Shown here: one piece after another, positions 1,912 to 19,852 of the stretch
Numbering within the stretch: the stretch's first letter is position 1
How the letters are laid out: each line of letters begins with the position of its first letter
Source of the DNA: Halochromatium sp.
GTDB lineage: Bacteria > Pseudomonadota > Gammaproteobacteria > Chromatiales > Chromatiaceae
Length of the DNA: 64,000 nucleotides
Reading direction: 5' to 3'
Assembly: GCA_010912705.1 (NCBI GenBank)
Contig: POWB01000002.1
Coordinates: forward strand, 62,001 to 126,000
Notes under the pieces: model-generated
Told to the model about the DNA's origin: nothing
Database searches by the model: none
Seen by the model: the letters and a program-made list of their open reading frames with translations, nothing else
Program-made: the position numbers and the translations under genes

Positions 1912-1921
1912 CACGAACGAG

Positions 1922-2830
1922 ATGGACACTATGGAAACCACGAGTCAAACCGCCTTACTCGGTCTGCTGGCCGAAACCTCTATCCATGCCGGCGCTGGTC
2001 AAAGCGGCGGCGTGATCGACCTGCCGATCCAACGTGAGGCGCACACCGCCTGGCCGGTGATCTTCGGCTCCGCCGTCAAGGGTGCCCTGCGTGCCTTGGC
2101 TGAGGAGCGCATAGAGACAACAGCACCTTGGCTGACCAGCGTCTTTGGCCCTGACACTCACAACGCCTCCGACCATGCCGGCGCCCTGCTGGTCGGCGAT
2201 GCCCGGCTGCTGCTGCTACCGGTGCGCTCGTTGACCAGTCACTTCAAATGGGTGACTTGTCCGGCGCTGCTCAAGCGCTTTGCCGCCGATGCCGCGCGGC
2301 TTGGCCTCCCTTGCTTCGCGGTGGATGCGATTCCCAAGGTCGAGGGTCGGGACTTGGCGCTGTTACCCGAACCTGGCCCCGAGGCGCTCTATCTGGAGGA
2401 GTTTCGCCTGCGCACCGAGTCGGCGGATTTTGGGACCATCCTGCCCATCCTCGCTGGACTGATGGCCCGTCCTGATGCGCGGGACGCGCTGGGTAAGCAA
2501 CTGGCCTTGGTCGATGATGACCGCTTCAATCATTTAGCCCAGTTCGCTACTCCAGTCAATGCCCATGTCTGCATCGACAATCAGCGCAAGACGGTCAAGC
2601 CTGGCGCGCTCTGGTACGAGGAGACGCTGCCGCCTGACACTCTGCTCACGGTGGCGCTGCACGCCCAAGGAACACGTCAGCAGGGCCAGAAGCGCAGCGC
2701 CGCCGAGGTACTCGCTCATGTGACCCGCGATCTCCTTGGAGAGCGGCCTTATTTGCAGCTCGGGGGCAATGAGACCGTTGGCATGGGTTGGTGCAAGGTC
2801 AGCATGCAGGCTGCGGGGGTGGAAGGATGA
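1922..2830 (+). CDS. cmr4: Cmr4, backbone and RNA-cleaving RAMP subunit of type III-B complex
   Basis: A 302-residue Cas7-like RAMP. In the segment GGVIDLPIQREAHT, Asp33 (counted from this start) matches the aspartate that cuts target RNA at 6-nt intervals in Cmr4. It is followed by the RAMP signature IFGSAVKGALRALAEER. The C-terminus carries LQLGGNETVGMGWC, typical of the family. An in-frame ATG exists at 1847, but it lies well inside cmr3. The ATG at 1922, or the one at 1931, follows the cmr3 stop by about 10-20 nt and fits the family N-terminus better. The stop overlaps cmr5 as ATGA. Confidence 0.92.
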   Translation: MDTMETTSQTALLGLLAETSIHAGAGQSGGVIDLPIQREAHTAWPVIFGSAVKGALRALAEERIETTAPWLTSVFGPDTHNASDHAGALLVGDARLLLLPVRSLTSHFKWVTCPALLKRFAADAARLGLPCFAVDAIPKVEGRDLALLPEPGPEALYLEEFRLRTESADFGTILPILAGLMARPDARDALGKQLALVDDDRFNHLAQFATPVNAHVCIDNQRKTVKPGALWYEETLPPDTLLTVALHAQGTRQQGQKRSAAEVLAHVTRDLLGERPYLQLGGNETVGMGWCKVSMQAAGVEG

Positions 2831-3453
2831 GCAACGGCAGAGGCTCTAAGCGGAAACACAACAAGTCCGCCAAAAATGCGACAGCGAGCGCATCCACACA
2901 GACCGCACCGGTGACGATTCGGCGAGCTTCAACGGCCCCCACGGAGGAAGCCGCTGCACCTAGCTCCGCGTTGCATGCGCAAGCAAAGGCATCCGCATCG
3001 GCGCCCGCTCCAAAGTCCTGCTCACCAGCCTTTGCCACGCCAGAGCAGGCGCGCGCCCGCTTTGCCCTGGAGCGCATCCAGGCGCTGCGCGACGAATGGC
3101 AGGAGAAGCTCAAGGAGCAAAAGGAATTCAACAGCTACGCCAGTGCCATGCCATTCATGATCCGCGCGAACGGGCTGGGCCAGACGGCTGCGTTCTACCG
3201 CCGCAAGGGCACCGACCATGTGTACTTCCGCCTCTACGCACTGCTGGGTGCTTGGCTGAGCCAACCGCAACGCCCGTTCGAGGGCAAACCCGATCTGCTC
3301 GAGGCCATCACTCAGTGCGACCAAGAGACCTATCTGGTGGCACAGATCGAGGCCCTGCTGTTTCTGGACTGGGTCAAGAAGCTGGCCAGCGCCTTCCTGG
3401 CCCGTGAAGAGGATCAAACGGCGACCACCGCGGCGACGGAGGCCCAGCCATGA
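2827..3453 (+). CDS. cmr5: Cmr5, small subunit of type III-B complex, with long N-terminal extension
   Basis: This 208-residue protein is about 70 residues longer than usual Cmr5 proteins. Residues 1 to ~70 are low complexity, rich in Ala, Ser, Thr, Pro and Lys, and look disordered. From about residue 73 the normal helical Cmr5 fold follows, with PEQARARFALERIQALRDEW, SYASAMPFMIRANGLGQTAAF and the C-terminal VAQIEALLFLDWVKKLASAF. Cmr5 lines the Cas7 backbone along the target RNA. The start is fixed by the ATGA overlap with cmr4, and the stop overlaps cmr6. The function of the extension is unknown. Confidence 0.9.
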   Translation: MSNGRGSKRKHNKSAKNATASASTQTAPVTIRRASTAPTEEAAAPSSALHAQAKASASAPAPKSCSPAFATPEQARARFALERIQALRDEWQEKLKEQKEFNSYASAMPFMIRANGLGQTAAFYRRKGTDHVYFRLYALLGAWLSQPQRPFEGKPDLLEAITQCDQETYLVAQIEALLFLDWVKKLASAFLAREEDQTATTAATEAQP

Positions 3454-4697
3454 ACTTACCGCTCTATCGCGATCATCAGGCCCCGTCGACGCTGCCCGAG
3501 ACCGGCCATCGCGGACTCTGGTATGAGCGCTTTTTCGATCGCTATGACGTTGACTGGACCGTGCTCAAAGAGAAAAAGGACAGCAAAGGGAAACGCCTAC
3601 AGCGCGAAGGCAAGGCGAGTTGGGTCGAAGACAACGCCAAGCTCGCGGGTCAGGGCGATACCCTGGATCTGGCCGTCCAACGCCAGCTCGCACTGGCGAC
3701 AACACTCGGCGGACGCGGCGCCGTGTTCCAGGCCGACTGGCACTTCGCGACCGGACTCGGCCTGCCGCATCCGGTCGAGAATGGGTTCGCCTGGCATCCC
3801 ACCCTGGGCGTGCCCTATCTGGCTGGTAGCGCGGTCAAGGGCTTGGTGCGCGCCTGGGTCGAGGTCTGGGATGAGTCGCTCGGGGATGCCAACAGCAAGC
3901 CACGCCAACAGCGGCTCGAGCACTGGTTTGGCTTCGCCGATCAGCCCGTTTCCGTCGACGGCCAGGTGGGCGAACGCCGCGCCAGTCAGGCCGGCGCCTT
4001 TCTCTTCTTCGACGCCCTGCCGCTCAAACCGGTCTGTCTGCGTGCCGATGTGATGACCCCGCACTTGGGCAAATGGTATGAGCAAGGCGGCGAGATCGAG
4101 GACTGGCGTCATGAACCGGACAAGGTGCCAGCCGATTGGCACGCCCCGGTGCCGGTGCCCTTCTTAGTTGTCGACAAGCCATCGCTGTTATTCAGCATCG
4201 CACCGCGTTGTCCAGATTGTCCCAAGGAGGAGCTGGATGCCGTTTTCAAGGCACTGAAACAGGCGCTGCAGTGGCTGGGCGCGGGCGCCAAGACGGCGGT
4301 TGGTTATGGGCTGATGCAGGAGGATGAGAAGGCGACGAGCGACCTGTATCAGGATCAAGAGCGGCGCGAGCAGCAACACAAGCAAGCCGCTGAGGACAGG
4401 CGTCAAGAAGCCGAACGCCAGGCCCAGCGAGCAAACCTCGATCCCTTCGAGCGCGCCTTGCTCGAGTTGATCGACGCGCGGCCCAATCCGCAACAGAGCG
4501 AGATCGCTTATCTGATTGCTGAGGTCAAGAACGGCCGCTGGCAGGGACAGGAAAAACAGGATGTCGCGCGCTGGCTGCAGGCCCGGATGCAGACTACCAA
4601 GGGGCAATGGAAACCAGAATCCAAGGCGAAGAAACCAGAGAAGGATCGCGAACACCAAAACACCTTGCTGGTCATGCAATGGCTCAAGGATGGCTGA
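3450..4697 (+). CDS. cmr6: Cmr6, RAMP subunit of type III-B complex, with charged C-terminal extension
   Basis: A 415-residue Cmr6 with the motif HPVENGFAWHPTLGVPY, followed by the RAMP signature AGSAVKGLVRAWVE near residues 120-140 and GAGAKTAVGYGLM near residue 280. Cmr6 sits at the 3' end of the crRNA backbone. After residue ~290 a strongly charged, probably coiled-coil region begins (RREQQHKQAAEDRRQEAERQ). A small helical domain of ~100 residues follows that typical Cmr6 proteins (~250-300 residues) lack. The start overlaps the cmr5 stop. Confidence 0.9.
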   Translation: MNLPLYRDHQAPSTLPETGHRGLWYERFFDRYDVDWTVLKEKKDSKGKRLQREGKASWVEDNAKLAGQGDTLDLAVQRQLALATTLGGRGAVFQADWHFATGLGLPHPVENGFAWHPTLGVPYLAGSAVKGLVRAWVEVWDESLGDANSKPRQQRLEHWFGFADQPVSVDGQVGERRASQAGAFLFFDALPLKPVCLRADVMTPHLGKWYEQGGEIEDWRHEPDKVPADWHAPVPVPFLVVDKPSLLFSIAPRCPDCPKEELDAVFKALKQALQWLGAGAKTAVGYGLMQEDEKATSDLYQDQERREQQHKQAAEDRRQEAERQAQRANLDPFERALLELIDARPNPQQSEIAYLIAEVKNGRWQGQEKQDVARWLQARMQTTKGQWKPESKAKKPEKDREHQNTLLVMQWLKDG

Positions 4698-5134: not shown

Positions 5135-6919
5135 ATGTTCCAACGTCTCTATGAACTCAGCCAATGCCTACCCGAGCGGGAGTCCTGGGAGCGCCTGAAT
5201 GAAGGCATGCCTGACCAATACGATCGGGGACTGGCGCTCTGCTTCGACGCCGCTGGCCAGTGGTGCGGCGTGCGCACCTACAACGGCAACCAGGGTGTGT
5301 TCTATCGCTCGGGTCCACCGAATGGCACCGACTTCACACCTTGCTGCAAGCTGGCAGGCAATACCGCCAATCGCTTGGCAAGCACTATCGAAGCCTGCGC
5401 GCAAGCACCTGAGCTCAGTGCACAGCAACGCCAATGGCTGACTGACAGCCTCGCCAGCTTCCGCACCCGTCAGGCGGCCATCTGGGCCGAGGTCGAGCAG
5501 GCCCGTCAGAGTGCCGGTATCGACGACAAGACGCACCTTGGCTATGTCTACTGGGCTGATGCGCAGATGCAGCCGGTGCATGGCTGGCCTGAGATTCAGG
5601 CGCTGGTGGTCCGCCAAGTGGTGAAGACCTTCGCAAACAAGGGTGGTGTACGCGAAGGCGCGACCTGTGCCGTGTGCGGCGGCGATGAACGACGCGTCTA
5701 TGGCAACTACAGCGTGCTCGCCTGCTACAACCTGAACAATCGTGGCAGCATCGCTGGCGGTTTCCGCGCACAGCAAGCACATCGCAACCTTCCAGTTTGC
5801 GGTGATTGCGCGCTCGCCATTGCCAATAGCTTTACCTTTGCCGAGACGTACCTCAGCAGCAGCATGGCCGGGCAGACCTATCTGGTGTTGCCCTATAGCA
5901 ATGCGCCTGAGGTGCGCGAGGAACTTCGCCTACGCCTCGGACAGCGTCCGCAACGCTACAGCCTGGGTAAGGCCCGTGATCTGATCGCGGATGAATGGGC
6001 ACTGATGGACGAATTTGCTGACTCTGGCGATCAACTGGCCCTCGCCCTGGTCTTCTTCAAGCAGCAAAAGGCCGCTTGGCGTGTGCAAGCCGAGGTGCAG
6101 CAACTGCTGCCAAGCCGTTTGCATGCGCTGCAGGATGCAGCCAAGGCGATCGCGCGCGCCGAGGATCTGATCACGATCACTAAGAAACAGGAAGAACAAC
6201 CCGTTCAGATCGGCGCCGGCACCTTCAGGACCTTCTCCGGCGCTGGCGACAAGCCTAGCGAGGAAACCCTACGTGATTGGCTAGCCGCGCTCTTTGCCGG
6301 GCGTGCCATCGACCGCCGCCACTTTTTGCATGCCCTAGTCGCCAAGCTGATCGCGACCGGTCGTGCCAACCCCAGCTTTTTGCACTGGACCACCCGCCAG
6401 GCCTGGGGCCTATACCGCTATGCCAGCCAGGTCCGTCTGATCGTTTCCGCTCCCACGGAGGAACACCCCGCCATGTCCGACGTCATCCCCGAGAGCCCTT
6501 ATGGACGCTATGTGCGCGAGCACGCTGACTTCTTTCGTCGCCCCGAGCTGGTGGTCGCCTTCCTCACCGGCTGTTATGCCGCTACGGTAGCCTCTGTTCA
6601 ATACCAGGAGCGCAAAGCCCAGCCCTTCACCAAGAAATTCATCGGCCGTTTGCTGACCCGTCAACACCTGCAGCGGCTCTATCGCGAGGGGCACGGCAAG
6701 CTCGCCCAATACGGCAAGCTCGGCCTTGTCATCACCCGTCTCGATCCGGACCTGGCCAACGCCTGGGTCGCCTGCGCCGATGCGTGGGCGATCAGCGATG
6801 AAGAAGCCACCTTCGCCTTCACCATTGGCTACAGCCTGGCCTATCGGATCGGACAGTTGGACCGCGCCGCGCTCGCCGACGCTGAGGCTGAGGCTGAGGC
6901 TGAGGCCGATCAGGTCTGA
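5135..6919 (+). CDS. cas8b: Cas8b (Csh1/TM1802 type), large subunit of type I-B Cascade
   Basis: A 594-residue protein of the Csh1/TM1802 type. A zinc-ribbon-like Cys pair set is visible at C178-x2-C181 (CAVCGG) and C222-x2-C225 (CGDC), as in many Cas8b proteins. Its place directly before a Csh2-type cas7 also identifies it. Cas8b recognises the PAM and holds the non-target strand in the I-B complex. The C-terminus ends in an Ala/Glu tail made by four GAGGCT units (6881-6906), which may vary in length between strains. It is the first gene of the I-B operon, 109 bp after csx16, with an AAAGGA stretch about 11 nt before the ATG. Confidence 0.87.
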   Translation: MFQRLYELSQCLPERESWERLNEGMPDQYDRGLALCFDAAGQWCGVRTYNGNQGVFYRSGPPNGTDFTPCCKLAGNTANRLASTIEACAQAPELSAQQRQWLTDSLASFRTRQAAIWAEVEQARQSAGIDDKTHLGYVYWADAQMQPVHGWPEIQALVVRQVVKTFANKGGVREGATCAVCGGDERRVYGNYSVLACYNLNNRGSIAGGFRAQQAHRNLPVCGDCALAIANSFTFAETYLSSSMAGQTYLVLPYSNAPEVREELRLRLGQRPQRYSLGKARDLIADEWALMDEFADSGDQLALALVFFKQQKAAWRVQAEVQQLLPSRLHALQDAAKAIARAEDLITITKKQEEQPVQIGAGTFRTFSGAGDKPSEETLRDWLAALFAGRAIDRRHFLHALVAKLIATGRANPSFLHWTTRQAWGLYRYASQVRLIVSAPTEEHPAMSDVIPESPYGRYVREHADFFRRPELVVAFLTGCYAATVASVQYQERKAQPFTKKFIGRLLTRQHLQRLYREGHGKLAQYGKLGLVITRLDPDLANAWVACADAWAISDEEATFAFTIGYSLAYRIGQLDRAALADAEAEAEAEADQV

Positions 6920-6978
6920 CTGAACACCGAGCCATGGGCTCACCTGAACCTCTCCAACCTGTCAAGGAGACCGACACC

Positions 6979-7965
6979 ATGTCCGTCATCAGCCACCGCT
7001 ACGAGATCCTATTCCTCTACGAGACCAAGGACTGCAACCCAAACGGCGATCCCCTCGACGAGAATCGCCCACGCACCGATCCCGAGACCGGCGAGGCGAC
7101 CATCAGCGATGTGCGCATCAAGCGCACCGTGCGCGACTACCTCTTGAGCCTGGAGCCGGACGCCAAGCAGCGCCTCGACGCCGGGCGCGAGATATTGATC
7201 CGCGACACCCTCAAGCCAGATGGACATCTGGCCCAGGGCGAGGATCGCGCCGAGCAATTCCTCGATGCCGCAGCCAAGGGCAAGAAGGGCGAGGTCAAAC
7301 GCCAAGCGGTGCAGGAGGCGGTATTGTCGGCTTGCATCGATGCGCGCCTGTTCGGTGCCACCCTGCCGCTCGGCAAGACCAATCCCTCGTTGCAACTGAC
7401 CGGCCCGGTTCAGTTCGCGGCCTTCAATCGCTCCTTGCATCGCGTCAGCCCAATGCTGGTCCAGCAAACCGCCGCCTATGCCGGCAGTGCCTCGGCCAAT
7501 CAGAAATCCTTCGCCGAGCGCTGGCTGCTGCCTTATGCGTTGATCGCGGCCTATGGTGTCGTCAACGAGACCGCCGCGCACACCACTGGGCTGAGCGAGA
7601 CCGACCTCAAGTACCTGCTCGAAGGCCTCTGGCAGGGCACCGCCGCACTCAACACCCATTCCAAGCTCGGTCATGATCCGCTGTTGCTGGTGGTGGCCGA
7701 GTATCAGCCTGGCTATCGCCTCGGTGCGCTGACGCACCGCATCGCACTGGTCGACAAGTGCGGCGAGGACACGGCGCTGCGCTCGACCCGCGACTATAAG
7801 CTTGATGTCAGCGAGTTGCTGGCCGCCTGGCGCGACTATGCGCCCTTGAATGGGCTGCAAGTGCTCCAAGACCCGCGTCTGCAGTGCCAAGCGCAGGGGG
7901 AGCAAGCCCTGTTCACGGCGCTGGCCCAACAGGCCAACTTGCCGGTCAAGGCGCTCGATCTCTAG
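6979..7965 (+). CDS. cas7: Cas7 (Csh2), backbone subunit of type I-B Cascade
   Basis: A 328-residue protein with the clear Csh2 start HRYEILFLYETKDCNPNGDP, followed by DPETGEATISDVRIKRTVRD near residues 32-52 and VRLFG/GKTNPSLQLTGPVQF-type sequence near 125-145. Csh2 polymerises along the crRNA in type I-B complexes. The ATG at 6979 is preceded by AAGGAGA at 6964-6970. This is a better site than the in-frame ATG at 6934, which would add 15 unconserved residues. It lies 2 bp before cas5. Confidence 0.93.
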   Translation: MSVISHRYEILFLYETKDCNPNGDPLDENRPRTDPETGEATISDVRIKRTVRDYLLSLEPDAKQRLDAGREILIRDTLKPDGHLAQGEDRAEQFLDAAAKGKKGEVKRQAVQEAVLSACIDARLFGATLPLGKTNPSLQLTGPVQFAAFNRSLHRVSPMLVQQTAAYAGSASANQKSFAERWLLPYALIAAYGVVNETAAHTTGLSETDLKYLLEGLWQGTAALNTHSKLGHDPLLLVVAEYQPGYRLGALTHRIALVDKCGEDTALRSTRDYKLDVSELLAAWRDYAPLNGLQVLQDPRLQCQAQGEQALFTALAQQANLPVKALDL

Positions 7966-7967
7966 CC

Positions 7968-8708
7968 ATGCGCACCCTGAGCTTCGACATCCGCGGTGAC
8001 TTAGGGCTGTTCAAAAAGCCCTATTCGCCGATGAGCCCGGTGAGCTTTCCCTTGCCGCCACCACCGTCAGTGCTGGGGATGCTCGGCGCGGTACTGGGCT
8101 TGGGCAAGGAGGATTACCATCAAGCGCTCGGTTGGGAGCAGGTGCGGATTGCGGTTGGCTTGCGCGCTCCGGTGCGGGTCTTCCGCGCCGCGCTCAATCT
8201 CCTTCAGACCAAGGATGGCACCGATGGCTATTTTCGCCCGCGTGCCGGGCAGAACACCCATACCCAAGTGCCCTGCGAACTGCTGCGCGAGCCGAGCTTT
8301 CGGATTTATGTCGCCGGTCTACCGGATGCGCTCGCCGATGAGTTGGCCGACGTGCTTCGCGCCGGGCGCAGCGCCTACACCGTCACGCTTGGGTTGGCGA
8401 ATTGCCTGGCTGATCTGCGCTGGGTCGGTGACGACATCGCCGAGCCTGTCAAAGCGCGCGACCAACAGGGGCAAGATGGCAGCGTCTGGGAGGCCAGTAC
8501 CGCCGTGCCGCTCGCCCCTGGACTGCGCATACGCTACGAAGAGGCTCGCCGTTATCACCGCCTGCGCATCCCGGCCTGCATGGATGGGCAACGGGTGGTG
8601 CATCGCTATCAGGAAATCGTCCTCGCCGAAGACGGGCAGCCGATCCGCGGCCAGGGTGGAATGGGAGTGCTTTATGCCGTTGGCTCCGACTTCATTGCCT
8701 TTCTCTGA
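7968..8708 (+). CDS. cas5: Cas5 (type I-B), crRNA 5'-handle-binding subunit
   Basis: A 246-residue protein starting MRTLSFDIRGDLGLFKKPYS, then FPLPPPPSVLGMLGAVLGL, the glycine-rich N-terminal RAMP pattern of Cas5h/Cas5b. Cas5 binds the 5' handle of the crRNA and links Cas8b to the Cas7 backbone. The start is 2 bp after the cas7 stop. The 3' end overlaps the cas3 start by 35 bp in another frame. Confidence 0.92.
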   Translation: MRTLSFDIRGDLGLFKKPYSPMSPVSFPLPPPPSVLGMLGAVLGLGKEDYHQALGWEQVRIAVGLRAPVRVFRAALNLLQTKDGTDGYFRPRAGQNTHTQVPCELLREPSFRIYVAGLPDALADELADVLRAGRSAYTVTLGLANCLADLRWVGDDIAEPVKARDQQGQDGSVWEASTAVPLAPGLRIRYEEARRYHRLRIPACMDGQRVVHRYQEIVLAEDGQPIRGQGGMGVLYAVGSDFIAFL

Positions 8709-11055
8709 GACCTTTGCGCATCCTGGTGACCCCTTGCCGCTGCATCTGGAGCGGGTCGCACAGCGCGCTGCAGCGAGCATTGCGCCCAGCGCGCGCCCGG
8801 AGATTCGCGCCATCGCCTTGCTCGCCGGGCTGTTTCACGACCTAGGCAAGGCGACGCCTTGGTTCCAAGCCTACCTGTTACAGGGTGGTCGGCGCTCGGT
8901 GCTCACCCATCATGCCGAGCTTGGCGCGCTACTGCTGTGGTGGTATAGCGCCGCGTTGAACTGGCCTCTGTGGCAACGCCTAGCGGCCTTCATCGCCGTG
9001 CGCCGCCACCATGGGGCGCTGCGTTTTCAGGCATGGCCGGCGTTGTTTGAGCAGACCCGTGCTGAATGGCGTGACCCTGAGAGCCCGCTGCGCCGCCAAG
9101 TCGAGGCACTGGATCTCAACGGCATCCAGGTCTGGCTCAAGGCCGTGGCGGTCCAGCATCCGCAACTCGCGCTGAGGGATGTCCTAGAAGAACCGCTCAC
9201 CCTTGAACGGATCGATGCGCGTCTGCGCGATCGCCAAGCTGTTGGCTCCAAACTCAGCGTTACCTTTACCGAACTCGATGAAGCGCTGGCCATGCTCGCG
9301 GGATTCGGCGCCTTGCTCGCGGTCGATAAAACCGATGCGGCCCTGCAAGGCGCTCAGCTCATGCGGCAGACGCTGCCAGCGGATGCGGTGACGCGTTACA
9401 AAACGGGTGACTTCACGGCGCAACGCAGCACAGATCACCTCAATCAGCGCCGCGAGCAGATCGCCAACACCGTCACCCAAACCTGGCTCGATCATCTGGA
9501 TCAACCACTGCTGACGCTGACCGCGCCCACCGGTGCGGGCAAGACGCTCACCGTGCTGCATGCCGCACTGCAAGCACGCACCCGACTCGAAGCCCGCGAT
9601 GGCGTGGCCCCACGCATCATCTACTGCCTGCCATTCACCTCGGTCATCGACCAGAATCATGCCGTCTTCCAGGCCGTGCTCCGCGCCAATGCGCTCCCCG
9701 ACCGCGAGGATCGGTTGCTCAAACATCACCATTTAACCGATAGCCTGTTTCGTACCGAGACGGCCGAATACCAAGCCGATGGTGCTGGCCAATTGCTCAC
9801 CGAGACCTGGCAAAGCGAACTGGTGGTAACGACCTTTCATCAATTGCTGCACTCGCTGCTCAGCACGCGTAACGCCAATCTGAAGCGCGCCGGTCAGCTC
9901 ACCGGCGCTATCGTGCTGCTCGACGAGGTGCAGGCACTGCCGCTGCGGTATTGGGAAGCCCTACGCCAATTACTGGCGGCCGCGGCGCGAACGCTAGGTG
10001 CGCGCTTCGTGCTGCTCACCGCAACCCGTCCGCTCATCTTCCACCCAGGCGACGCGGTTGAACTGCTACCGGACCATGACGCCCATTTTCGCGCCATGAC
10101 CCGTACCCGGCTGCATGCACGGCATCGTGAACCACTTACGCTGGAGCGCTTTGCTGAGCGACTGATCGCAGAACTGCGCCAGAGCCATCCGCCCATGCTG
10201 ATCATTCTCAACCGTCGTCGCGCTGTGCGGCGCCTGTTTGAGGCACTGCATGAGGCGCTTCCGGAAAGACCCCTGGTCGCCTTGTCGACGGATCTCACCC
10301 CCTTGGATCGGCGCGCCCGCATCCGCCTCATCCGCCGTCTGTTACGCCAAGGTCAGCCCGTCATCGCCATCACCACGCAGTTGGTCGAGGCCGGTGTCGA
10401 CTTCAGCTTTCCGGTGGTCCATCGTGATTTGGCACCGCTTGATGCGCTCATCCAGGCCGCTGGTCGATGTAATCGTCACGGCGAAAGTAAAACAGAGCCA
10501 GGCGGGGTCTATCTGTGGCAGCTCCAAGACACCAAGCCCGATGGACAGACCGGCGAAGCACTCTGGCGACGGGTCTACGATGCGGCGTTGATTGAGGTGA
10601 CCGTGGAGACGCTTGGTAGCGCTGAGCACTGGGATGAGAGTGACTTTCTGGCGCTGACTCAAGATTACTTCAGCGGCTGCCGAGCGCGGCAAGATCAACA
10701 GCGCATCGATCAACAGCTCACGCAAGGGGATCTTACCGGGATGGAACAGGCCTTTCAGTTGATCGAGGAACAGCCCAAGGTGGCCCTATTTATCGCTCGC
10801 ACGCCGCTCGACCAGCGACTCTGGGCGCGTTACCAAGCACTGCGCGATGATCCGCAGCTGACGCCCGCTGAACAAGAACGCCAGTTTCGGATATTCAAAC
10901 GCGCCTTCTACGAGCGCGTGATTCAGGTGCATGCCCGCACTGCGCAAGGCTTAGAGCGCGACACCATTCACTGCCTTGACGCGGGTGAAGAGACCTATGA
11001 TCGCGCCGCTGGATTCCTCGCGCTGCCAGGAGAAGCGCCCACATGCATCCTCTAG
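8674..11055 (+). CDS. cas3: Cas3, HD nuclease-helicase of type I-B
   Basis: A 793-residue fused Cas3. The HD domain shows LFHDLGK (H55, D56), THHAELGA (H79, H80) and RRHHG. The helicase shows Walker A GAGKT at residues 287-291, the DEVQ box at 417-420, and motif VI QAAGRCNRHGE from residue 594. The protein unwinds and degrades DNA recruited by Cascade. All catalytic motifs look intact. The ATG at 8674 follows GGGAGTG and lies inside the end of cas5. The frame stays open further upstream, but that stretch is only the cas5 gene read in another frame. The 3' end overlaps cas6. Confidence 0.95.
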   Translation: MPLAPTSLPFSETFAHPGDPLPLHLERVAQRAAASIAPSARPEIRAIALLAGLFHDLGKATPWFQAYLLQGGRRSVLTHHAELGALLLWWYSAALNWPLWQRLAAFIAVRRHHGALRFQAWPALFEQTRAEWRDPESPLRRQVEALDLNGIQVWLKAVAVQHPQLALRDVLEEPLTLERIDARLRDRQAVGSKLSVTFTELDEALAMLAGFGALLAVDKTDAALQGAQLMRQTLPADAVTRYKTGDFTAQRSTDHLNQRREQIANTVTQTWLDHLDQPLLTLTAPTGAGKTLTVLHAALQARTRLEARDGVAPRIIYCLPFTSVIDQNHAVFQAVLRANALPDREDRLLKHHHLTDSLFRTETAEYQADGAGQLLTETWQSELVVTTFHQLLHSLLSTRNANLKRAGQLTGAIVLLDEVQALPLRYWEALRQLLAAAARTLGARFVLLTATRPLIFHPGDAVELLPDHDAHFRAMTRTRLHARHREPLTLERFAERLIAELRQSHPPMLIILNRRRAVRRLFEALHEALPERPLVALSTDLTPLDRRARIRLIRRLLRQGQPVIAITTQLVEAGVDFSFPVVHRDLAPLDALIQAAGRCNRHGESKTEPGGVYLWQLQDTKPDGQTGEALWRRVYDAALIEVTVETLGSAEHWDESDFLALTQDYFSGCRARQDQQRIDQQLTQGDLTGMEQAFQLIEEQPKVALFIARTPLDQRLWARYQALRDDPQLTPAEQERQFRIFKRAFYERVIQVHARTAQGLERDTIHCLDAGEETYDRAAGFLALPGEAPTCIL

Positions 11056-11723
11056 CCCAGATCCCCTTTGCCCAGGTCGAACTGACCTGGGATCGTACCC
11101 TGAACGGCAAGCCGTCTCAGCGCGCCCGCCAACTGCGCGGTGCCGTTGCCCATGCCTTTGCTGATGATCCGCTGTTCCACCAGCATGACCTGACCACGGG
11201 GAAGCCGCTCTATCGCTATCCCCGGGTGCACTATCGCTGGCAGGATGGACATGGGTTGATCGTCGGTTGGGGCGACGCTGCTCAACAGTTACTTGAGCGC
11301 CCCTGGCTCGATCTAACGCTGAGACTGGGCGAGGAATCGGTCGCCATTGAGGATGCGGCATTGACCTTGCGGCAAGGGCAGTTTGCGCTCAGCGAGCGGC
11401 TCGAGCGCTACCGCCTGCGCACCCCGGCGCTGTTGTTCAATCAGGAAAACTATGCACGCTATCAGCAGATGAGCGAGGATCTGCAGGACCGAGAGCGTAA
11501 TCGGCTGCTGGTCTCCAACCTACTGATCGCGTTGCGCGGGCTGGAGGTCCATGTTCCCGAGCGACTCTATGCTGGCTTCACTCAGTTCCAGTCCCAGCCC
11601 TGCCACTACAAGAATCAACCGCTCTTGGGCCTGACCGGAACCCTCCTCTGTAATGCGCACCTGCCCGACGGACTGGCGCTCGGGCATGCGGTCAGCCACG
11701 GATTTGGCTGGCTCACTCGCTAA
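11043..11723 (+). CDS. cas6: Cas6b-type CRISPR RNA endonuclease
   Basis: A 226-residue protein with the Cas6b N-terminal pattern (ARQLRGAVAHAF, then LYRYPRVHYRWQDGHGLIVGW) and a C-terminal glycine-rich end (LGHAVSHGFGWLT). Cas6 cuts the pre-crRNA within each repeat, leaving the 8-nt handle ATTGAAAC here. It is the only Cas6 in the window, so it probably feeds both the I-B and III-B complexes. It overlaps the end of cas3 by 13 bp. I could not assign a catalytic histidine with confidence. Confidence 0.82.
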   Translation: MHPLAQIPFAQVELTWDRTLNGKPSQRARQLRGAVAHAFADDPLFHQHDLTTGKPLYRYPRVHYRWQDGHGLIVGWGDAAQQLLERPWLDLTLRLGEESVAIEDAALTLRQGQFALSERLERYRLRTPALLFNQENYARYQQMSEDLQDRERNRLLVSNLLIALRGLEVHVPERLYAGFTQFQSQPCHYKNQPLLGLTGTLLCNAHLPDGLALGHAVSHGFGWLTR

Positions 11724-11760
11724 CCGTCCAACAGTTCTTTAACAATTCAGAGATCCGCGA

Positions 11761-11784
11761 TCCTCGCCCCGTTCGGGGCGAGGA
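11761..11784 (+). other. Perfect 10-bp hairpin in the cas6-cas1 gap
   Basis: TCCTCGCCCC pairs perfectly with GGGGCGAGGA around a GTTC loop. It lies 38 bp after the cas6 stop and 116 bp before cas1. There is no T-run after it on either strand, so a simple intrinsic terminator is not well supported. An attenuator or RNA-stabilising structure between interference and adaptation genes is possible. Confidence 0.5.
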
Positions 11785-11806
11785 GTTCGGTCTGCCGATA
11801 GGCCCG

Positions 11807-11822
11807 TTCGCAAGCTTGCCAA
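11807..11822. promoter_or_regulatory. Palindromic motif upstream of cas1, possible operator
   Basis: TTCGCAAGCTTGCCAA is the exact reverse complement of the motif at 5034-5049 and holds the same GCAAGCTTGC core. It ends 77 bp before the cas1 start. The two copies sit at almost the same distance from the first gene of the interference set and of the adaptation set. Confidence 0.45.
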
Positions 11823-11899
11823 CTCTGCCAAAGGCCTGGGCCTGTTGTGCAATCACTGCTTTCCCAGCATCCCAGCAAGCCACCCAGGCAGCACCCTCT

Positions 11900-12880
11900 A
11901 TGGACCTGATTCTCACCACCTTCGGTACCTATCTGCACCGCCGCGACGAGTTGTTCGTCGTCAAGGTCAAGGATGAGAAACAAGAAATCTCCTCGCGCAA
12001 GGTGCGCTCGATCTTGATCACCACGGGCGCCAGTCTATCGACCGATGCCATTGCCCTGGCGATCGAGAAGAACATTGATGTCGTCTTTCTCAATGCGGTC
12101 GGCGAACCCTATGGGCGTATCTGGCATGGTCGACCCGGCTCCACCATTGCCATCCGCCGTGAGCAGTTACGCCTTGCCGATACTGAGCAGGGGTTTAGGC
12201 TAGCCCTTGGCTGGATGACCCGAAAGCTCGATAACCAGATCGAGTTCTTGCGGTGCACGCGCAAGCGCCGCACCAAGCTCTCAGCCCCACTCACGGACGC
12301 GCTGCACAAACTCGAACAGCACCGTACCGACCTGAATGCCCTGACGGGTACGCTCGATGAGATCCGCGGGCACCTGATGGGCATCGAAGGACGTGCCGGG
12401 CGCACCTATTGGGAAACCCTGAGTCTCCTGATGCCCGAAACGTTCCGCTTCAGCGGTCGTTCCCGCAACCCAGCTCAGGATGAATTCAACTGCTTGCTCA
12501 ATTATGCCTATGGCGTGCTGTATAGCACCGTAGAGCGTGCCTGCATTCTTGCCGGACTTGATCCCTATGTCGGCTTTGTGCATACCGATCATTATCAGAA
12601 AAAATCCTTGGTCTTCGATCTGATCGAGTGCTATCGCATCTGGGCAGATGAGACCGTCGTCGGACTCTTTGCCGCGCGCAAGATCAAGCCATCGCAGTTC
12701 GACTGTCTGCAGAACGGCATGAAGCTCAACAAAGAAGGAAAAGCGGTCTTGATGGAAGCATTCGGAGCGTTTCTCGATGACACGATTCGCTATCGAAGCC
12801 GCAACATCAAACGCCGAGACAGCGTGCAGCTTGATTGCCATCAAATCGCCAACAGCTGGATCAAGAAGGAGGCATCATGA
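11900..12880 (+). CDS. cas1: Cas1, CRISPR integrase
   Basis: A 326-residue Cas1 of the I-B type. The N-terminal beta domain reads TTFGTYLHRRDELFVVKV. The catalytic helical domain holds the three expected metal ligands: Glu in GRTYWETL, His in VGFVHTDH and Asp in LVFDLIE. Cas1 inserts new spacers at the leader end. It follows a 176-bp gap containing a hairpin and a palindrome, so cas1-cas2-cas4 may have its own promoter. The stop overlaps cas2 as ATGA. Confidence 0.95.
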   Translation: MDLILTTFGTYLHRRDELFVVKVKDEKQEISSRKVRSILITTGASLSTDAIALAIEKNIDVVFLNAVGEPYGRIWHGRPGSTIAIRREQLRLADTEQGFRLALGWMTRKLDNQIEFLRCTRKRRTKLSAPLTDALHKLEQHRTDLNALTGTLDEIRGHLMGIEGRAGRTYWETLSLLMPETFRFSGRSRNPAQDEFNCLLNYAYGVLYSTVERACILAGLDPYVGFVHTDHYQKKSLVFDLIECYRIWADETVVGLFAARKIKPSQFDCLQNGMKLNKEGKAVLMEAFGAFLDDTIRYRSRNIKRRDSVQLDCHQIANSWIKKEAS

Positions 12881-13182
12881 AAACCACGGAAACCCTGGTC
12901 TGGGTCATCTACGATATTGTCAAAGATAGACCAAGGACCAAGATCGCGAAATGCTGTAAGAATGCGGGGTTGTATCGGGTGCAGAAATCCGTTTTTCTTG
13001 GCACCATTGCCCGCAACCGACTCGATGAACTGCGTCTGCAGATCGACGATCTGATGGACGAAGAGACTGATTCCGTCTATATCTTTCCGCTCTGCGAGCC
13101 GGATTTCCGCAAGGTGATTCTAATGGGGCAGGCGTTTGACAAGGACATGGTAACGGACGAAGTGCGAGCGCTTTTCCTATGA
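12877..13182 (+). CDS. cas2: Cas2, spacer-integration partner of Cas1
   Basis: A 101-residue ferredoxin-fold protein. The N-terminus has VWVIYDIVKDRPRTKIAK, with the conserved Asp after the first strand, then LYRVQKSVFLG. Cas2 dimers bridge Cas1 dimers in the integrase. The ATG at 12877 overlaps the cas1 stop and the family N-terminus starts here. An in-frame upstream ATG at 12835 is inside cas1. The stop overlaps the cas4 start. Confidence 0.95.
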   Translation: MKTTETLVWVIYDIVKDRPRTKIAKCCKNAGLYRVQKSVFLGTIARNRLDELRLQIDDLMDEETDSVYIFPLCEPDFRKVILMGQAFDKDMVTDEVRALFL

Positions 13183-13787
13183 TAGCCAGTGTGCAGGATA
13201 CAGAACACACGCCGATGCTAACGCCATCGGAGGTGCTCGAGCATATTTACTGCCCGCGCTTCACCTGGTACATGAATGTCCAGCATATTCCACAACATGA
13301 AGATACACGCTTCAAGGTATTAAAAGGTCGCGAGGTGCATCGGCGCAGGGCCACGGAGAATCGGGATTATCTGCGCAAGCGAATCGGTGCCGTGAAACGC
13401 GAGATCGAAGTCTACCTCGCCTCTCCCACGCTCAGGCTCCGGGGGATCGTCGATGAGGTCCTCTGGCTCAAGGATGGCACCATGGCACCGCTCGACTACA
13501 AATATACTGAGCCCCGTGAACAGGTCTTCAAGACCCACGAGACCCAAATCCTCATCTACGCGATGCTGATCGAGGCCATCTACCAGACGCCGGTAAGAAA
13601 AGGCTATCTCGCGTATGTTCGCACGGGTCAGCATCTGCAAGAAGTCGAGGTGACCGAATCAGCGAAAGCAACTGTTGTCGCTGTGGTCGATCAGATTTTT
13701 GCTATCCTAGACACTGGAAAACTTCCTTCCCGCGCACGCTCAGCACGCCGCTGTGAAGACTGTTGCTACAAAAATATTTGTGTATAA
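13179..13787 (+). CDS. cas4: Cas4, RecB-like exonuclease with Fe-S cluster
   Basis: A 202-residue Cas4. One cluster cysteine is in HIYCPRFTWY near residue 25, and the others are in the C-terminal CEDCCYKNIC. The RecB nuclease residues are seen in RGIVDEV, PLDYKYTE and ETQILIYAMLIE. Cas4 trims prespacers and checks the PAM before integration. It overlaps cas2 as ATGA and is the last gene before the leader. Cas4 after Cas2 differs from the common I-B order cas4-cas1-cas2. Confidence 0.94.
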   Translation: MIASVQDTEHTPMLTPSEVLEHIYCPRFTWYMNVQHIPQHEDTRFKVLKGREVHRRRATENRDYLRKRIGAVKREIEVYLASPTLRLRGIVDEVLWLKDGTMAPLDYKYTEPREQVFKTHETQILIYAMLIEAIYQTPVRKGYLAYVRTGQHLQEVEVTESAKATVVAVVDQIFAILDTGKLPSRARSARRCEDCCYKNICV

Positions 13788-13959: not shown

Positions 13960-16900
13960 GTCCGCGACCTCAATCCACTACAACAAGGATTGAAACGTTT
14001 CGGCGGCGCGGCGCTCGTAGCGCTCGGCTTCCCGTCCGCGACCTCAATCCACTACAACAAGGATTGAAACTCTGCCAACTCATACAACCAGGCGCTCACG
14101 TCCGGTCGTCCGCGACCTCAATCCACTACAACAAGGATTGAAACAGATCGAAGTGCGCGCTTCGGGTGTGGACAGGAATACTGTCCGCGACCTCAATCCA
14201 CTACAACAAGGATTGAAACGCTCAAGCCGACGACGCATGAGGAAAGGGATCTCTGGTCCGCGACCTCAATCCACTACAACAAGGATTGAAACCCTTCTGT
14301 CGCACCAGCCTGGGAATCTCGTCGGGGTCCGCGACCTCAATCCACTACAACAAGGATTGAAACTATCTTGGAATCCTTGATATACGGCGCAGGTATAGTG
14401 TCCGCGACCTCAATCCACTACAACAAGGATTGAAACGCCCTGGGCTGCTTACGTATTGGGCTCCTGGTTCAAGGTCCGCGACCTCAATCCACTACAACAA
14501 GGATTGAAACTCGCAAGGCTGGGGCGGATTAATCGGATCGGGAACTTGTCCGCGACCTCAATCCACTACAACAAGGATTGAAACACGGAATCAGCTCAAG
14601 CGCCTTTGGCGCCTTGGCTGTCCGCGACCTCAATCCACTACAACAAGGATTGAAACGTCTTCAACCACCGGCGGGAGCCCCGCGCCTGTTACCGTCCGCG
14701 ACCTCAATCCACTACAACAAGGATTGAAACATGAAGCTGAGCAAGTCTGGCCGTCTGGCGTCAAGAGTCCGCGACCTCAATCCACTACAACAAGGATTGA
14801 AACTGCAAAAGCAACCGTAGACGACAGAACAGCACCAGCACGTCCGCGACCTCAATCCACTACAACAAGGATTGAAACCTGCTGCGACGATGGCAGCGTC
14901 GCCACCCGAAAAAGTCCGCGACCTCAATCCACTACAACAAGGATTGAAACTTTCCGGCCCCTGGACGCATCCCATACTCAAGCGCAGTCCGCGACCTCAA
15001 TCCACTACAACAAGGATTGAAACAACAGGCTCAGGCTGCCCTTAATGAGGGTTTTTCTTGTCCGCGACCTCAATCCACTACAACAAGGATTGAAACCACA
15101 CTAGACGAGGATCTGGGCAAGCCGGCGCAGCTCATCGATGGTCCGCGACCTCAATCCACTACAACAAGGATTGAAACCTTCGCAACGGAGCCCACCCACC
15201 AGCCCCGCAGAGGTCCGCGACCTCAATCCACTACAACAAGGATTGAAACCTGCCGCGACGATTGCTGCATCTCCACCGCTAAAGTGTCCGCGACCTCAAT
15301 CCACTACAACAAGGATTGAAACACCAAGGGGGCCAAGGCTGAAGATGCGGAACGCTTGTCCGCGACCTCAATCCACTACAACAAGGATTGAAACCTCGCT
15401 CGCGTTCGCTGTCGGTGAATATGTCGTCAAAGGTCCGCGACCTCAATCCACTACAACAAGGATTGAAACTGTCAAAGCAACGCGCGCGCTGGCTCGTCAA
15501 GGTCAGTCCGCGACCTCAATCCACTACAACAAGGATTGAAACAGCTGTGTCCGGCTATGTGATGCACGGTGCAGATTAGTCCGCGACCTCAATCCACTAC
15601 AACAAGGATTGAAACTTGGTATCAACAGACGCCAGCGCACCGCCGACCAGCAGTCCGCGACCTCAATCCACTACAACAAGGATTGAAACTCCAGCGCGTC
15701 GGACGCAAGTTCGGCAACGGCCGCATGTCCGCGACCTCAATCCACTACAACAAGGATTGAAACGCCTTGCGTCGCGAGACCCCCTGCGGTTGCCTGCTAT
15801 GGTCCGCGACCTCAATCCACTACAACAAGGATTGAAACCTGATCTGCTGGCTTGCATCGTCCATCTCCATGAGCGTCCGCGACCTCAATCCACTACAACA
15901 AGGATTGAAACCTCGAGTGCCAGCCGGCCAGCCTGATGAGCGCCATCGTCCGCGACCTCAATCCACTACAACAAGGATTGAAACATCTGTACTCTCAAAC
16001 GTGTCGTGAGCGTCGTATAGGTCCGCGACCTCAATCCACTACAACAAGGATTGAAACCCGAGCGCGCCGCTAATGGCGGTCGCCGCTTCGCTGGGTCCGC
16101 GACCTCAATCCACTACAACAAGGATTGAAACATGCTCAGCGTTAACTGCCCGGTCACGCCATCGACCGTGTCCGCGACCTCAATCCACTACAACAAGGAT
16201 TGAAACTTCATCGTGCGTTGGGTCGATGCTCGGCTCCGGGGTTGTCCGCGACCTCAATCCACTACAACAAGGATTGAAACATCCGCTCGACGCCAGCCCA
16301 GCCGCTCAACCTCCCGCGTCCGCGACCTCAATCCACTACAACAAGGATTGAAACTCCAAGTGCTCAGGCTCTTGCCCCAGCCACCCGATCGTCCGCGACC
16401 TCAATCCACTACAACAGGGATTGAAACCCTTAGCAAATTCACCGTCGACGACAGCCGACATGTGTCCGCGACCTCAATCCACTACAACAAGGATTGAAAC
16501 GTAACGGTGGCGAGATCGGCGGCCAGTTCGGTAGCGGGTCCGCGACCTCAATCCACTACAACAAGGATTGAAACATGTGGTGAGCACGACTGAGGTTGGG
16601 CGGCTAGCCGGTCCGCGACCTCAATCCACTACAACAAGGATTGAAACACCTCGAAGTGCCATCGGGCTGAGCCGCTCCGTTTGGCGTCCGCGACCTCAAT
16701 CCACTACAACAAGGATTGAAACGCGCATATCTCAAACGCTGGCGTATGGGGCTGGTTCGTCCGCGACCTCAATCCACTACAACAAGGATTGAAACCTGGA
16801 TAGCTTCGCATTTCGATCTCCTGGCTAGGTGTGTCCGCGACCTCAATCCACTACAACAAGGATTGAAACCAGATAAGCAAGATCCGACGACTTGGGCAAT

Positions 16901-19038
16901 AAAAGAGTCCGCGACCTCAATCCACTACAACAAGGATTGAAACTTTTCGGCACATTGAGCGCTGCAGCAACATCATTGAGTCCGCGACCTCAATCCACTA
17001 CAACAAGGATTGAAACCTGTGCTGCGCGTTGTGCCTCGTCTGCCGCTTGCTGTGTCCGCGACCTCAATCCACTACAACAAGGATTGAAACGTCGAGGGTC
17101 GATGCAGCCCTTGCAGAGGCTGGGTCTGTCCGCGACCTCAATCCACTACAACAAGGATTGAAACTCAGACTCGCACCATTGCCGACTTGTGGCAATGGTG
17201 TCCGCGACCTCAATCCACTACAACAAGGATTGAAACAACACGCCAGTGTAGTACGTCCGGGTGTTTGTGAAAGTCCGCGACCTCAATCCACTACAACAAG
17301 GATTGAAACCACGTGGGCACGATGTGGTCGTGCCATAGTCGCAATGTCCGCGACCTCAATCCACTACAACAAGGATTGAAACGAGCTGCGCTCGAAGAAC
17401 CAGTACCTGTAGCTGAGGAGTCCGCGACCTCAATCCACTACAACAAGGATTGAAACGTGCAGATGCAGGGGCCGTTCGACAACCTCAATCGGAGTCCGCG
17501 ACCTCAATCCACTACAACAAGGATTGAAACCGCTGTATGGCGAGTGGTGCTCGGAGGTGACGTCGAGGTCCGCGACCTCAATCCACTACAACAAGGATTG
17601 AAACGAAGTCCAGCCAGCCGGACCTTGACACTGTCGATCTGTCCGCGACCTCAATCCACTACAACAAGGATTGAAACCTGCTTGCCGTTGCCACGCGGAC
17701 GCCGACGCATTGAGGTCCGCGACCTCAATCCACTACAACAAGGATTGAAACATGGCCGCAATCTGCGCATCAACAAGCGCCCGCTGCGTCCGCGACCTCA
17801 ATCCACTACCTCGACTTTGGCCATTTTGCAGGCATCCAAAGGCGCTAACTGCCTGAAAAATCGTAAGGGCAAGAATTTAGAAGGGGTCAGCAAGCCAGGA
17901 CTCCAGAAGCAGACCCCTCGCTAAATCCTTTCCACAACACAAGCCACTGAAAGTAAAGGGTTTGCGAGCCGCAAAAAATGGCCAAAGTCGAGCACTACAA
18001 CAAGGATTGAAACTGTTCCTGCAGCTCTTCTCTTTTCCGGTGCTGCTTTGTCCGCGACCTCAATCCACTACAACAAGGATTGAAACACGAACCAGAACGT
18101 TGCACCGCGCCGGATTTCACGTCCGCGACCTCAATCCACTACAACAAGGATTGAAACATTAACAGGGTCTTTTACCCATGGACAGCAAACAAGTCCGCGA
18201 CCTCAATCCACTACAACAAGGATTGAAACACGCTCAGACAGCCCGGAAGCTATGAGCGCCTGATAGTCCGCGACCTCAATCCACTACAACAAGGATTGAA
18301 ACATGTAAAGCGTCAATCCTCGCGTCTTCTTCATCTGACGTCCGCGACCTCAATCCACTACAACAAGGATTGAAACCCAACTTGCGGGCCACCATGGCGC
18401 GTGGTTGATTCGGGTCCGCGACCTCAATCCACTACAACAAGGATTGAAACGGTCTACCCTCTCCCAGTTCAGCTTGAGCGCTTCGGATGGTCCGCGACCT
18501 CAATCCACTACAACAAGGATTGAAACCAACGAGCGCGGTTGAGACGACAACCGAGACACTGAGGTCCGCGACCTCAATCCACTACAACAAGGATTGAAAC
18601 TTAGCCTCTTGCGGGGGCGTGGTGGGTGTTAGATGGTCCGCGACCTCAATCCACTACAACAAGGATTGAAACTTGGCACAATAGGAAATCCGTCAACATG
18701 GGTGGTATGTCCGCGACCTCAATCCACTACAACAAGGATTGAAACTTCTCCAAGCAGGCTGGGTGGTTCTTGTCTGAGGGCGGTCCGCGACCTCAATTCA
18801 CTACAACAAGGATTGAAACGCGTTCTGGCGCTGCGGCTTGGTCACCTGATCGACGTCCGCGACCTCAATCCACTACAACAAGGATTGAAACGCAATTCGA
18901 CCGCGTGACCGATCCCGAGCTGAAAGCGTCCGCGACCTCAATCCACTACAACAAGGATTGAAACTGCACCATCAAGCGTGCACCCGCCTCTTCGACTTCT
19001 TGTCCGCGACCTCAATCCACTACAACAAGGATTGGAAC
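13960..19038 (+). CRISPR. CRISPR array, 67 repeats of 37 bp and 66 spacers
   Basis: The repeat begins GTCCGCGACC and ends GGATTGAAAC, 37 bp in all. I counted 67 repeat starts from 13960 to 19002. Spacers are 34-39 bp (mostly 36-37) except one of 44 bp at 15097-15140. Repeat arms TCAATCC (11-17) and GGATTGA (28-34) form a 7-bp stem with a 10-nt loop, and the 3' end matches the ATTGAAAC handle of Cas6-processed I-B/III-B repeats. Variants are repeat 34 (16391, A27G), repeat 53 (split by an insertion, 17788-18013), repeat 64 (18783, C16T) and the last repeat (19002, A34G). New spacers should enter at the left. No spacer was recognised by eye as matching genes in this window. Confidence 0.98.
17810..17992. 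mobile_element. 183-bp MITE-like element inserted in a CRISPR repeat
   Basis: The element interrupts repeat 53 after its 22nd base. Its ends are perfect 18-bp inverted repeats, CTCGACTTTGGCCATTTT and complement. CACTAC flanks it on both sides (17804-17809 and 17993-17998), and removing one copy restores the 37-bp repeat exactly, so this is a 6-bp target duplication. The inside has no meaningful ORF but has a further inverted pair AGGGGTC/GACCCCT. This is the structure of a non-autonomous transposable element. The mobilising transposase is not in the window. Confidence 0.9.
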
Positions 19039-19592: not shown

Positions 19593-19770
19593 CTCGATTT
19601 TGGCCGTTTTGGCCGTTTTGGCCGTTTTGGCCGTTTTGGCCGTTTTGGCAGTCTCCCTGCGCGCTAACTGACTGAAAATCGTGCGAGGAAAAATTTAGAG
19701 AGGTTCTGCAAGACTGCACCCCAAAGGTAGAGCCCTCGCTAATTTTTCCTGCATCACAAGCCTTTGAAAT
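19593..19770. mobile_element. Diverged or partial copy of the array MITE
   Basis: It starts CTCGATTTTGGCC, one base different from the left end of the array element. It then shares GCGCTAACTG, CTGAAAATCG, AATTTAGA, CCCTCGCTAA and CACAAGCC in the same order and spacing. The left end carries five copies of TTTTGGCCG plus a partial one (19598-19650), which the array copy lacks. No matching right inverted repeat was found, so this copy is degraded or truncated. The end coordinate is where similarity fades. Confidence 0.7.
19598..19650. repeat. Tandem TTTTGGCCG 9-bp repeat, about 5.9 units
   Basis: Five perfect copies of TTTTGGCCG followed by TTTTGGCA lie at the left end of the second MITE-like copy. 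The unit is part of the element's terminal inverted repeat, so the tract probably grew by slippage or repeated end duplication. Confidence 0.9.
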
Positions 19771-19852
19771 GATATGTTTTTTAGGCGGGATTTGGAGAGA
19801 CTGATCTCCTCATCAAGTGCCTAGTGAGCGTTGGTACAGGGGGAAAGACTGC

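Follow-up and report, generated by a model that had tools for sequence, protein, structure and literature searches.

The window, that is, the whole stretch of 64,000 nucleotides that was analysed, carries CRISPR-associated genes and a long CRISPR array, as shown in Table 1. A Cmr set of type III-B is located upstream of the type I-B cas genes, and cas8b, cas6b, cas1, cas2 and cas4 of the latter set adjoin the repeat-spacer array, which identifies the locus as a type I-B CRISPR-Cas system. The array was taken as read on the + strand because cas1, cas2 and cas4 lie upstream of it, the last repeat is degenerate and the repeats end in ATTGAAAC; this end, or a one-base variant of it, is found in each repeat of the array. 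In the genome to which the window belongs, 63 occurrences of a 28-base piece of the repeat were counted, all of them in the window array, which is the sole array with this repeat sequence in the assembly.

Table 1. Positions of the array, the cas genes, the insertion in repeat 53 and related features in the window.
Feature	Position	Strand	Remarks
Type III-B genes	59..4697	+	part of a Cas10, Cmr3, Cmr4, Cmr5, Cmr6
Type I-B genes	5135..13787	+	cas8b, cas7, cas5, cas3, cas6b, cas1, cas2, cas4
cas6b	11043..11723	+	likely pre-crRNA endonuclease; Pfam Cas6b_N and Cas6b_C; PADLOC Cas6b
CRISPR array	13960..19038	+	67 repeats of 37 bp (one split), 66 spacers
Spacer 48	17457..17493	+	34 of 37 bases match the portal gene of L184 (L184:12027-12063)
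Left half of repeat 53	17788..17809	+	bases 1-22; carries the 5' stem strand (bases 11-17)
Target duplication, left copy	17804..17809		CACTAC
MITE	17810..17992	+	183 bp, non-coding
Left terminal inverted repeat	17810..17827	+	18 bp, all shared with the left ends of the IS701-type elements in L013 and L050
Right terminal inverted repeat	17975..17992	-	18 bp
Right half of repeat 53	17993..18013	+	bases 17-37; carries the 3' stem strand and ATTGAAAC
Target duplication, right copy	17993..17998		CACTAC
Spacers 53-66 with intervening repeats	18014..19001	+	distal to the MITE
Degenerate relative of the MITE	19593..19790 (end approximate)	+	just past the array; missed in the first-pass annotation

The first-pass annotation had described a MITE-like insert in this array, and its account of the insertion agrees with the sequence. 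In repeat 53 of the 67, base 22 is followed by a 183-bp insert whose ends are inverted repeats of each other over 18 of 18 bp, and CACTAC is found on both sides. When the left half of the repeat is joined to the right half minus one CACTAC, the exact 37-bp consensus is restored, and 14 spacers, 53 to 66, were counted beyond the split repeat. As is characteristic of a MITE, the insert is short and without a transposase gene; its 183 bp hold at most 61 codons, and a 155-aa frame that enters it runs through CRISPR repeats.

Copies of the element and its likely partner

The host assembly that was searched comprises 4,188,196 bp in 43 contigs and is 89.8% complete. In this genome, eight places match the element at E <= 0.001, and three of these are full-length copies at 99-100%, the window copy being included in both counts. 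The two other full-length copies, C38:1163-1345 and C1:60968-61150, are mutually identical and are one base, at position 108, apart from the window copy. The remaining copies are those of C4 (81% alike) and C40 (78% alike), and partial ones in C6, C24 and C10. The insertion is thus not a matter of chance, because eight places in the genome match the element and the split repeat belongs to the sole array of its kind. Matches were found in 4 of the 55 genomes searched, namely the host's own, two of the same genus (G005 and G007) and one of another genus in the same family (G011), so that the proposed search for further copies in the host and in other Chromatiaceae was successful in both. In G011, a MITE-like left end (L041:1501-1558) is followed by an ISL3-type transposase element, apparently inserted into a MITE.

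Eight copies of 182-184 bp, with 70-74% full-length identity, stand among the matches listed from Thiorhodococcus mannitoliphagus, Thiocystis violacea and Lamprocystis. Their alignment scores are 189-212, compared with a maximum of 133 in 100 shuffled cores. The full-length likeness, together with scores above those of the shuffled cores, therefore indicates that these MITEs form one family in purple sulfur bacteria. In Desulfobacterales, Legionella, Marinifilum, Phycisphaerae and others, elements that share the ends reach scores of 48-125, no better than shuffled cores. The contig scan for the ends returned at least 114 stretches, and the distribution given here is a lower bound. The degenerate relative just past the array consists of a left end, a run of 9-bp TTTTGGCCG units and two core stretches (44 and 68 nt) that are 75% alike; its right end is not recognisable, and its full-length alignment score of 131 is within the range of the shuffled cores.

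The C38 copy lies inside a frame with a CN-hydrolase match, and the C1 copy (L003:1501-1683) sits at the end of an hsdM-like frame, which has an N6-methylase match and is followed by an hsdS-like frame. The C24 copy (L007:1500-1570) adjoins a methyltransferase-like frame, and further copies are near epimerase, glycosyltransferase and photolyase-related genes. The neighbours of a defence type are thus the CRISPR array, the end of the hsdM-like frame, the methyltransferase-like frame and the type I restriction genes of a prophage-like record described below; a preference for defence loci is not claimed, as this pattern was seen post hoc and without a background rate. No other CRISPR array hit by such an element was found in the fetched loci, which have flanks of a few kb and from which five loci overlapping the window were left out. 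One locus, L114, was flagged in this array scan, but its spacing is irregular.

Target duplications of 5-7 bp (CACTAC, TATATTA, CTACCTC, CTAATT and TTTGA) are found at 5 of the 7 complete MITEs examined in the host and same-genus genomes, the window copy included, and are absent at the copies of C40 and G005. In G029, which represents another genus of the same family, eight of the nine copies of a 1.5-kb insertion sequence (IS) stand between duplications of 5 or 6 bp. In the fetched loci, the ends could be paired in 39 ways, 16 of them with a duplication of at least 5 bp, and many of the others were poor second partners of one end. The overall tally drew on 17 of these 39 pairings (the 16 and L161), and its total of 29 of 33 with a duplication is therefore biased, whereas the counts of 5 of 7 complete MITEs and 8 of 9 G029 copies are free of that selection. 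Among a chosen set of 21 duplications of 5 bp, 12 fit NTNAN and 8 fit YTNAR. A sequence hot spot in the repeat was considered as the cause of the insertion and rejected; the YTNAR sites of the repeat are at bases 10 and 31, and the insertion used neither.

The likely partner of the MITE is an insertion sequence of the IS701 type (DDE_5) that shares its ends. The search for a transposase with the same ends, which the first-pass annotation had also proposed, led to IS701-type elements in L013, L050 and G029. The first of these, L013, lies in the host's own genome (C8:41388) and has the exact 18-bp end, which belongs to a decayed element about 1.2 kb long whose transposase is broken. Relatives of its C-terminal part were found at E <= 1e-10 in 9 of 55 genomes, the host included. 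With this C-terminal query, the host assembly gives one match at E <= 1e-10, which has an internal stop and pieces in different frames; an intact transposase of the partner family was not found in this assembly, at its completeness of 89.8%. Because the only host copy found is broken, an intact copy would have to have been lost or to lie in the missing part of the assembly. Open transposase frames of full length occur only outside the host assembly, with 452 aa in G005 (L047) and 471 aa in G029 (L055). Both proteins match PF13546 DDE_5 above the gathering score, and the NCBIfam model NF049999 for the IS701 family gives 303 and 311 bits for the two (curated cut-off 170). The nine IS copies of G029 are about 1.5 kb long, and both of their ends start with CTCGACTTTGGCCA. 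Of the same-genus elements, L050 is the one complete IS with both ends, and it has no duplication; L047 has a recognisable right end only.

The end of the MITE agrees with the left ends of the IS in L013 and L050 at 18 of 18 bases and with their right ends at 15 of 18; for the ends of the G029 IS, the agreement is 17 and 16 of 18. Nothing clearly alike was found past about 20 bp, and the likeness is confined to the ends. The partnership rests on the ends and the duplications, because the MITE and the IS share only these terminal 20 bp or so; for the same reason, the proposal that the MITE is a simple internal deletion of the IS is not supported. The IS701-type elements (NF049999, PF13546), as exemplified by ISGka1 and ISGka2, have a DDE_5 transposase, a length of about 1.5 kb and short, variable duplications; members of the family are said in PMC8024623 to make duplications of 4 or 5 bp, and ISGka1 and ISGka2 made 4-9 bp. 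Unlike such an IS, the window element is without a transposase and has only the ends in common with it. The further copies, the duplications and the transposase-bearing elements with the same ends bear out the identification of the insert as a MITE.

Folding of the split repeat and the expected output of the array

The stem of the repeat is formed by bases 11-17 with bases 28-34, and the insertion leaves each strand whole, one in each half. The first-pass annotation had suggested that this stem still closes around the insert, and the suggestion holds in silico. When the RNA from spacer 52 to spacer 53 was folded in isolation, with Cas6b, transcription and Rho outside the model, the stem pairs of the split repeat had probabilities of 0.92-0.99, close to the 0.93-1.0 of the restored repeat 53. 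With 40 shuffled inserts, the stem means had a median of 0.011 and a maximum of 0.97, and the 63 exact repeats in their own context gave a median of 0.98 and a minimum of 0.01. The pairs of the terminal inverted repeat of the MITE have a mean probability of 0.87, with single pairs down to 0.11. The closure of the stem is most likely attributed to the inverted ends of the element. The shuffled inserts keep the base composition and lose the inverted ends, and the control thus points to the importance of inverted ends and not to any special property of this MITE.

Taken together, these results are best explained as follows. A MITE with IS701-type ends very probably entered repeat 53, in its loop region, through a transposase acting in trans, with a 6-bp duplication, and the array is likely to tolerate it. 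The insertion with its duplication, the other copies and the same-end transposase elements of the host and related genomes are all directly visible in the sequences, and a transposase of the partner family would have moved the MITE. In the proposed process, the transposase is supplied to the non-autonomous element, which enters the loop region as six bases of the target are duplicated. Transcription of the array would then probably continue through the insert, and the repeat stem would close around the hairpin of the MITE. Such repeats are usually cut before ATTGAAAC. If Cas6b does so here, the unit of spacer 52 would be 262 nt long instead of about 73 nt, and the change would mainly concern the crRNA of this one spacer. 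Spacer 53 would retain repeat bases 17-37 ahead of it, and spacers 54-66 would retain whole repeats. If the split repeat is not cut by Cas6b, a fused unit of spacers 52 and 53 would result. The split repeat belongs to the leader-distal and presumably older portion of the array, in which a minor loss may be easily tolerated.

The insertion could instead cut the array functionally, with the transcript ending or being destroyed at the hairpin of about 200 nt and spacers 53-66 left as a silent memory, which we consider possible although somewhat unlikely. The insert and its flanks (17788-18013) do fold strongly, at -78.2 kcal/mol with a z of -6.0, and long structured RNA can attract RNases. However, a consensus scan of 17700-18120 found no terminator-like site on the + strand (one was found, on the - strand, against 0.8 expected). 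The same scan found no promoter-like site in this region, nor any promoter inside the MITE. The distal repeats are also without visible decay. Among the 66 unsplit repeats, variants are found at 16391, proximal to the insert, and at 18783 and the terminal 19002, which amounts to 2 of 14 distal against 1 of 52 proximal repeats, numbers that are too small to judge decay.

That the element has been domesticated in the array, and selected for altering crRNA 52 or for guarding the distal array from deletion by recombination between repeats, appears highly improbable. Its position in the hairpin loop, which leaves the repeat stem closable, would suit such a role. However, two near-identical copies stand elsewhere, in the CN-hydrolase frame of C38 and at the end of the N6-methylase frame of C1, and repeats make up about half of the array length (67 x 37 of 5079 bp), so that a hit in a repeat is expected in about one half of insertions into the array. 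A conserved RNA fold in the core of the MITE was likewise rejected, as an RNAalifold consensus of 15 copies has a covariation term of -0.6 and shows two-sided changes in 4 of 41 pairs, which is little sign of a selected fold. An artefact of assembly, in which reads of another MITE copy were placed in the array, might be considered since the genome holds several copies of the element and the array itself is repetitive; we regard it as barely credible. The insert does not look like an assembly chimera, because MITE-joined unrelated contigs would not yield an exact 6-bp duplication and an exactly restored repeat, and because the window copy differs at position 108 from both near-identical copies. 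An element of 183 bp is, moreover, short enough for long Illumina reads to span. The tolerated MITE insertion remains the preferred reading.

Known cases and a prophage-like record matched by spacer 48

As a genetic event, the insertion of a MITE is ordinary, and the view of the first-pass annotation that transposon hits inside CRISPR repeats are rarely documented does not stand against the published cases of IS6110 in a repeat and of a MITE in a spacer (PMC7708916, PMC5310062, PMC3119063). In Mycobacterium tuberculosis, the direct repeat that separates spacers 34 and 35 is split by IS6110, with 3 bp duplicated; of the IS6110 insertions in the CRISPR locus, this one is called the most frequent (PMC7708916), and the locus is called a hot spot for IS6110 (PMC5310062). 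The case resembles that of the window in that a CRISPR repeat, with spacers on either side, is broken by a transposable element that made a short duplication; however, IS6110 is an insertion sequence of 1355 bp and is tied to deletions there (PMC7708916, PMC5310062), whereas the window element is a MITE of 183 bp. The window array further differs in standing beside type I-B and III-B genes, and the ends of its MITE can pair, so that the repeat stem stays closed.

The MITE HqIRS37 of Haloquadratum walsbyi HBSQ001 also lies within a CRISPR array, but it is in a spacer, and the strain has no cas genes and only a remnant of that array (PMC3119063). In Sulfolobus solfataricus P2, as told in PMC3839810, an IS entered the matching spacer under plasmid challenge; this too is a transposon within a CRISPR array, but it is an IS, in a spacer, and arose under selection against the match. 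Insertions of IS and MITEs into cas genes have been surveyed (PMC10359306), and they resemble the present case in that transposons, including MITEs, hit CRISPR-Cas loci. There, cas genes are the targets, whereas the cas genes checked in the window have open frames and the repeat is what was hit. The words CRISPR and IS701 are absent from the text of a 2024 review of prokaryotic MITEs (PMC10969869). Neither this MITE family nor any MITE inside a CRISPR repeat was met in the literature searched, a body of work from which subscription journals are largely missing. So far as searched, the MITE family, its partner and a MITE-bearing, prophage-like record matched by spacer 48 are new. The results thereby add an IS701-type MITE family of purple sulfur bacteria with its likely partner and one copy inside that record.

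The exact 18-bp end of the MITE occurs in one contig of IMG/VR, L184, with a length of 68.5 kb. This contig has matches to an integrase, a primase, a DNA polymerase, type I restriction genes, a terminase and a P22-like portal, and is probably a prophage. Its MITE (L184:422-604) is 183 bp long, 67% identical to the window copy and 76% identical to the Thiorhodococcus copies; it is located about 1.5 kb from the nearest restriction gene and has no exact adjacent duplication. As shown in Table 1, spacer 48 of the window array matches the portal gene of the same contig. This match emerged from a screening of the spacers against the loci that had already been fetched and was thus an unplanned test; the other spacer hits in these loci were only 15-19 nt long. 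The 26-base core of the protospacer of spacer 48 is present in three IMG/VR contigs. The array gave no match to INPHARED phages at E <= 0.01, and no spacer targeting the MITE was found by blastn-short at E <= 0.05. These observations suggest that such phages may carry the MITE between hosts.

A further-reaching proposal combines the two sets of results. The loop of the repeat would be a safe harbour for palindromic mini-transposons, in which Cas6b still cuts the split repeat because the ends of the element pair with each other, and the array would continue to work with one crRNA that has a giant hairpin tail, while the MITE would move among purple sulfur bacteria on prophages of a lineage targeted by a spacer of the same array. 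We consider this proposal unlikely as a whole; if it is true, the immune memory was struck by the cargo of one of its own targets. The locus offers a natural experiment on the tolerance of Cas6b and of CRISPR transcription, with a loop insert of 183 nt for which the 52 preceding and the 14 following unsplit repeats can serve as internal controls.

Other features of the array concern its spacers. Spacers 13 (14879-14913) and 18 (15250-15285) are closely alike, as if they had been taken from one site in two related phages. Spacer 16 (15097-15140) has a length of 44 nt, and the remaining 65 spacers are 34-39 nt long. A near-perfect inverted repeat, ATTGAGGTCCGCGACCTCAAT, spans the junction of spacer 51 with the repeat that follows it (17709-17729).
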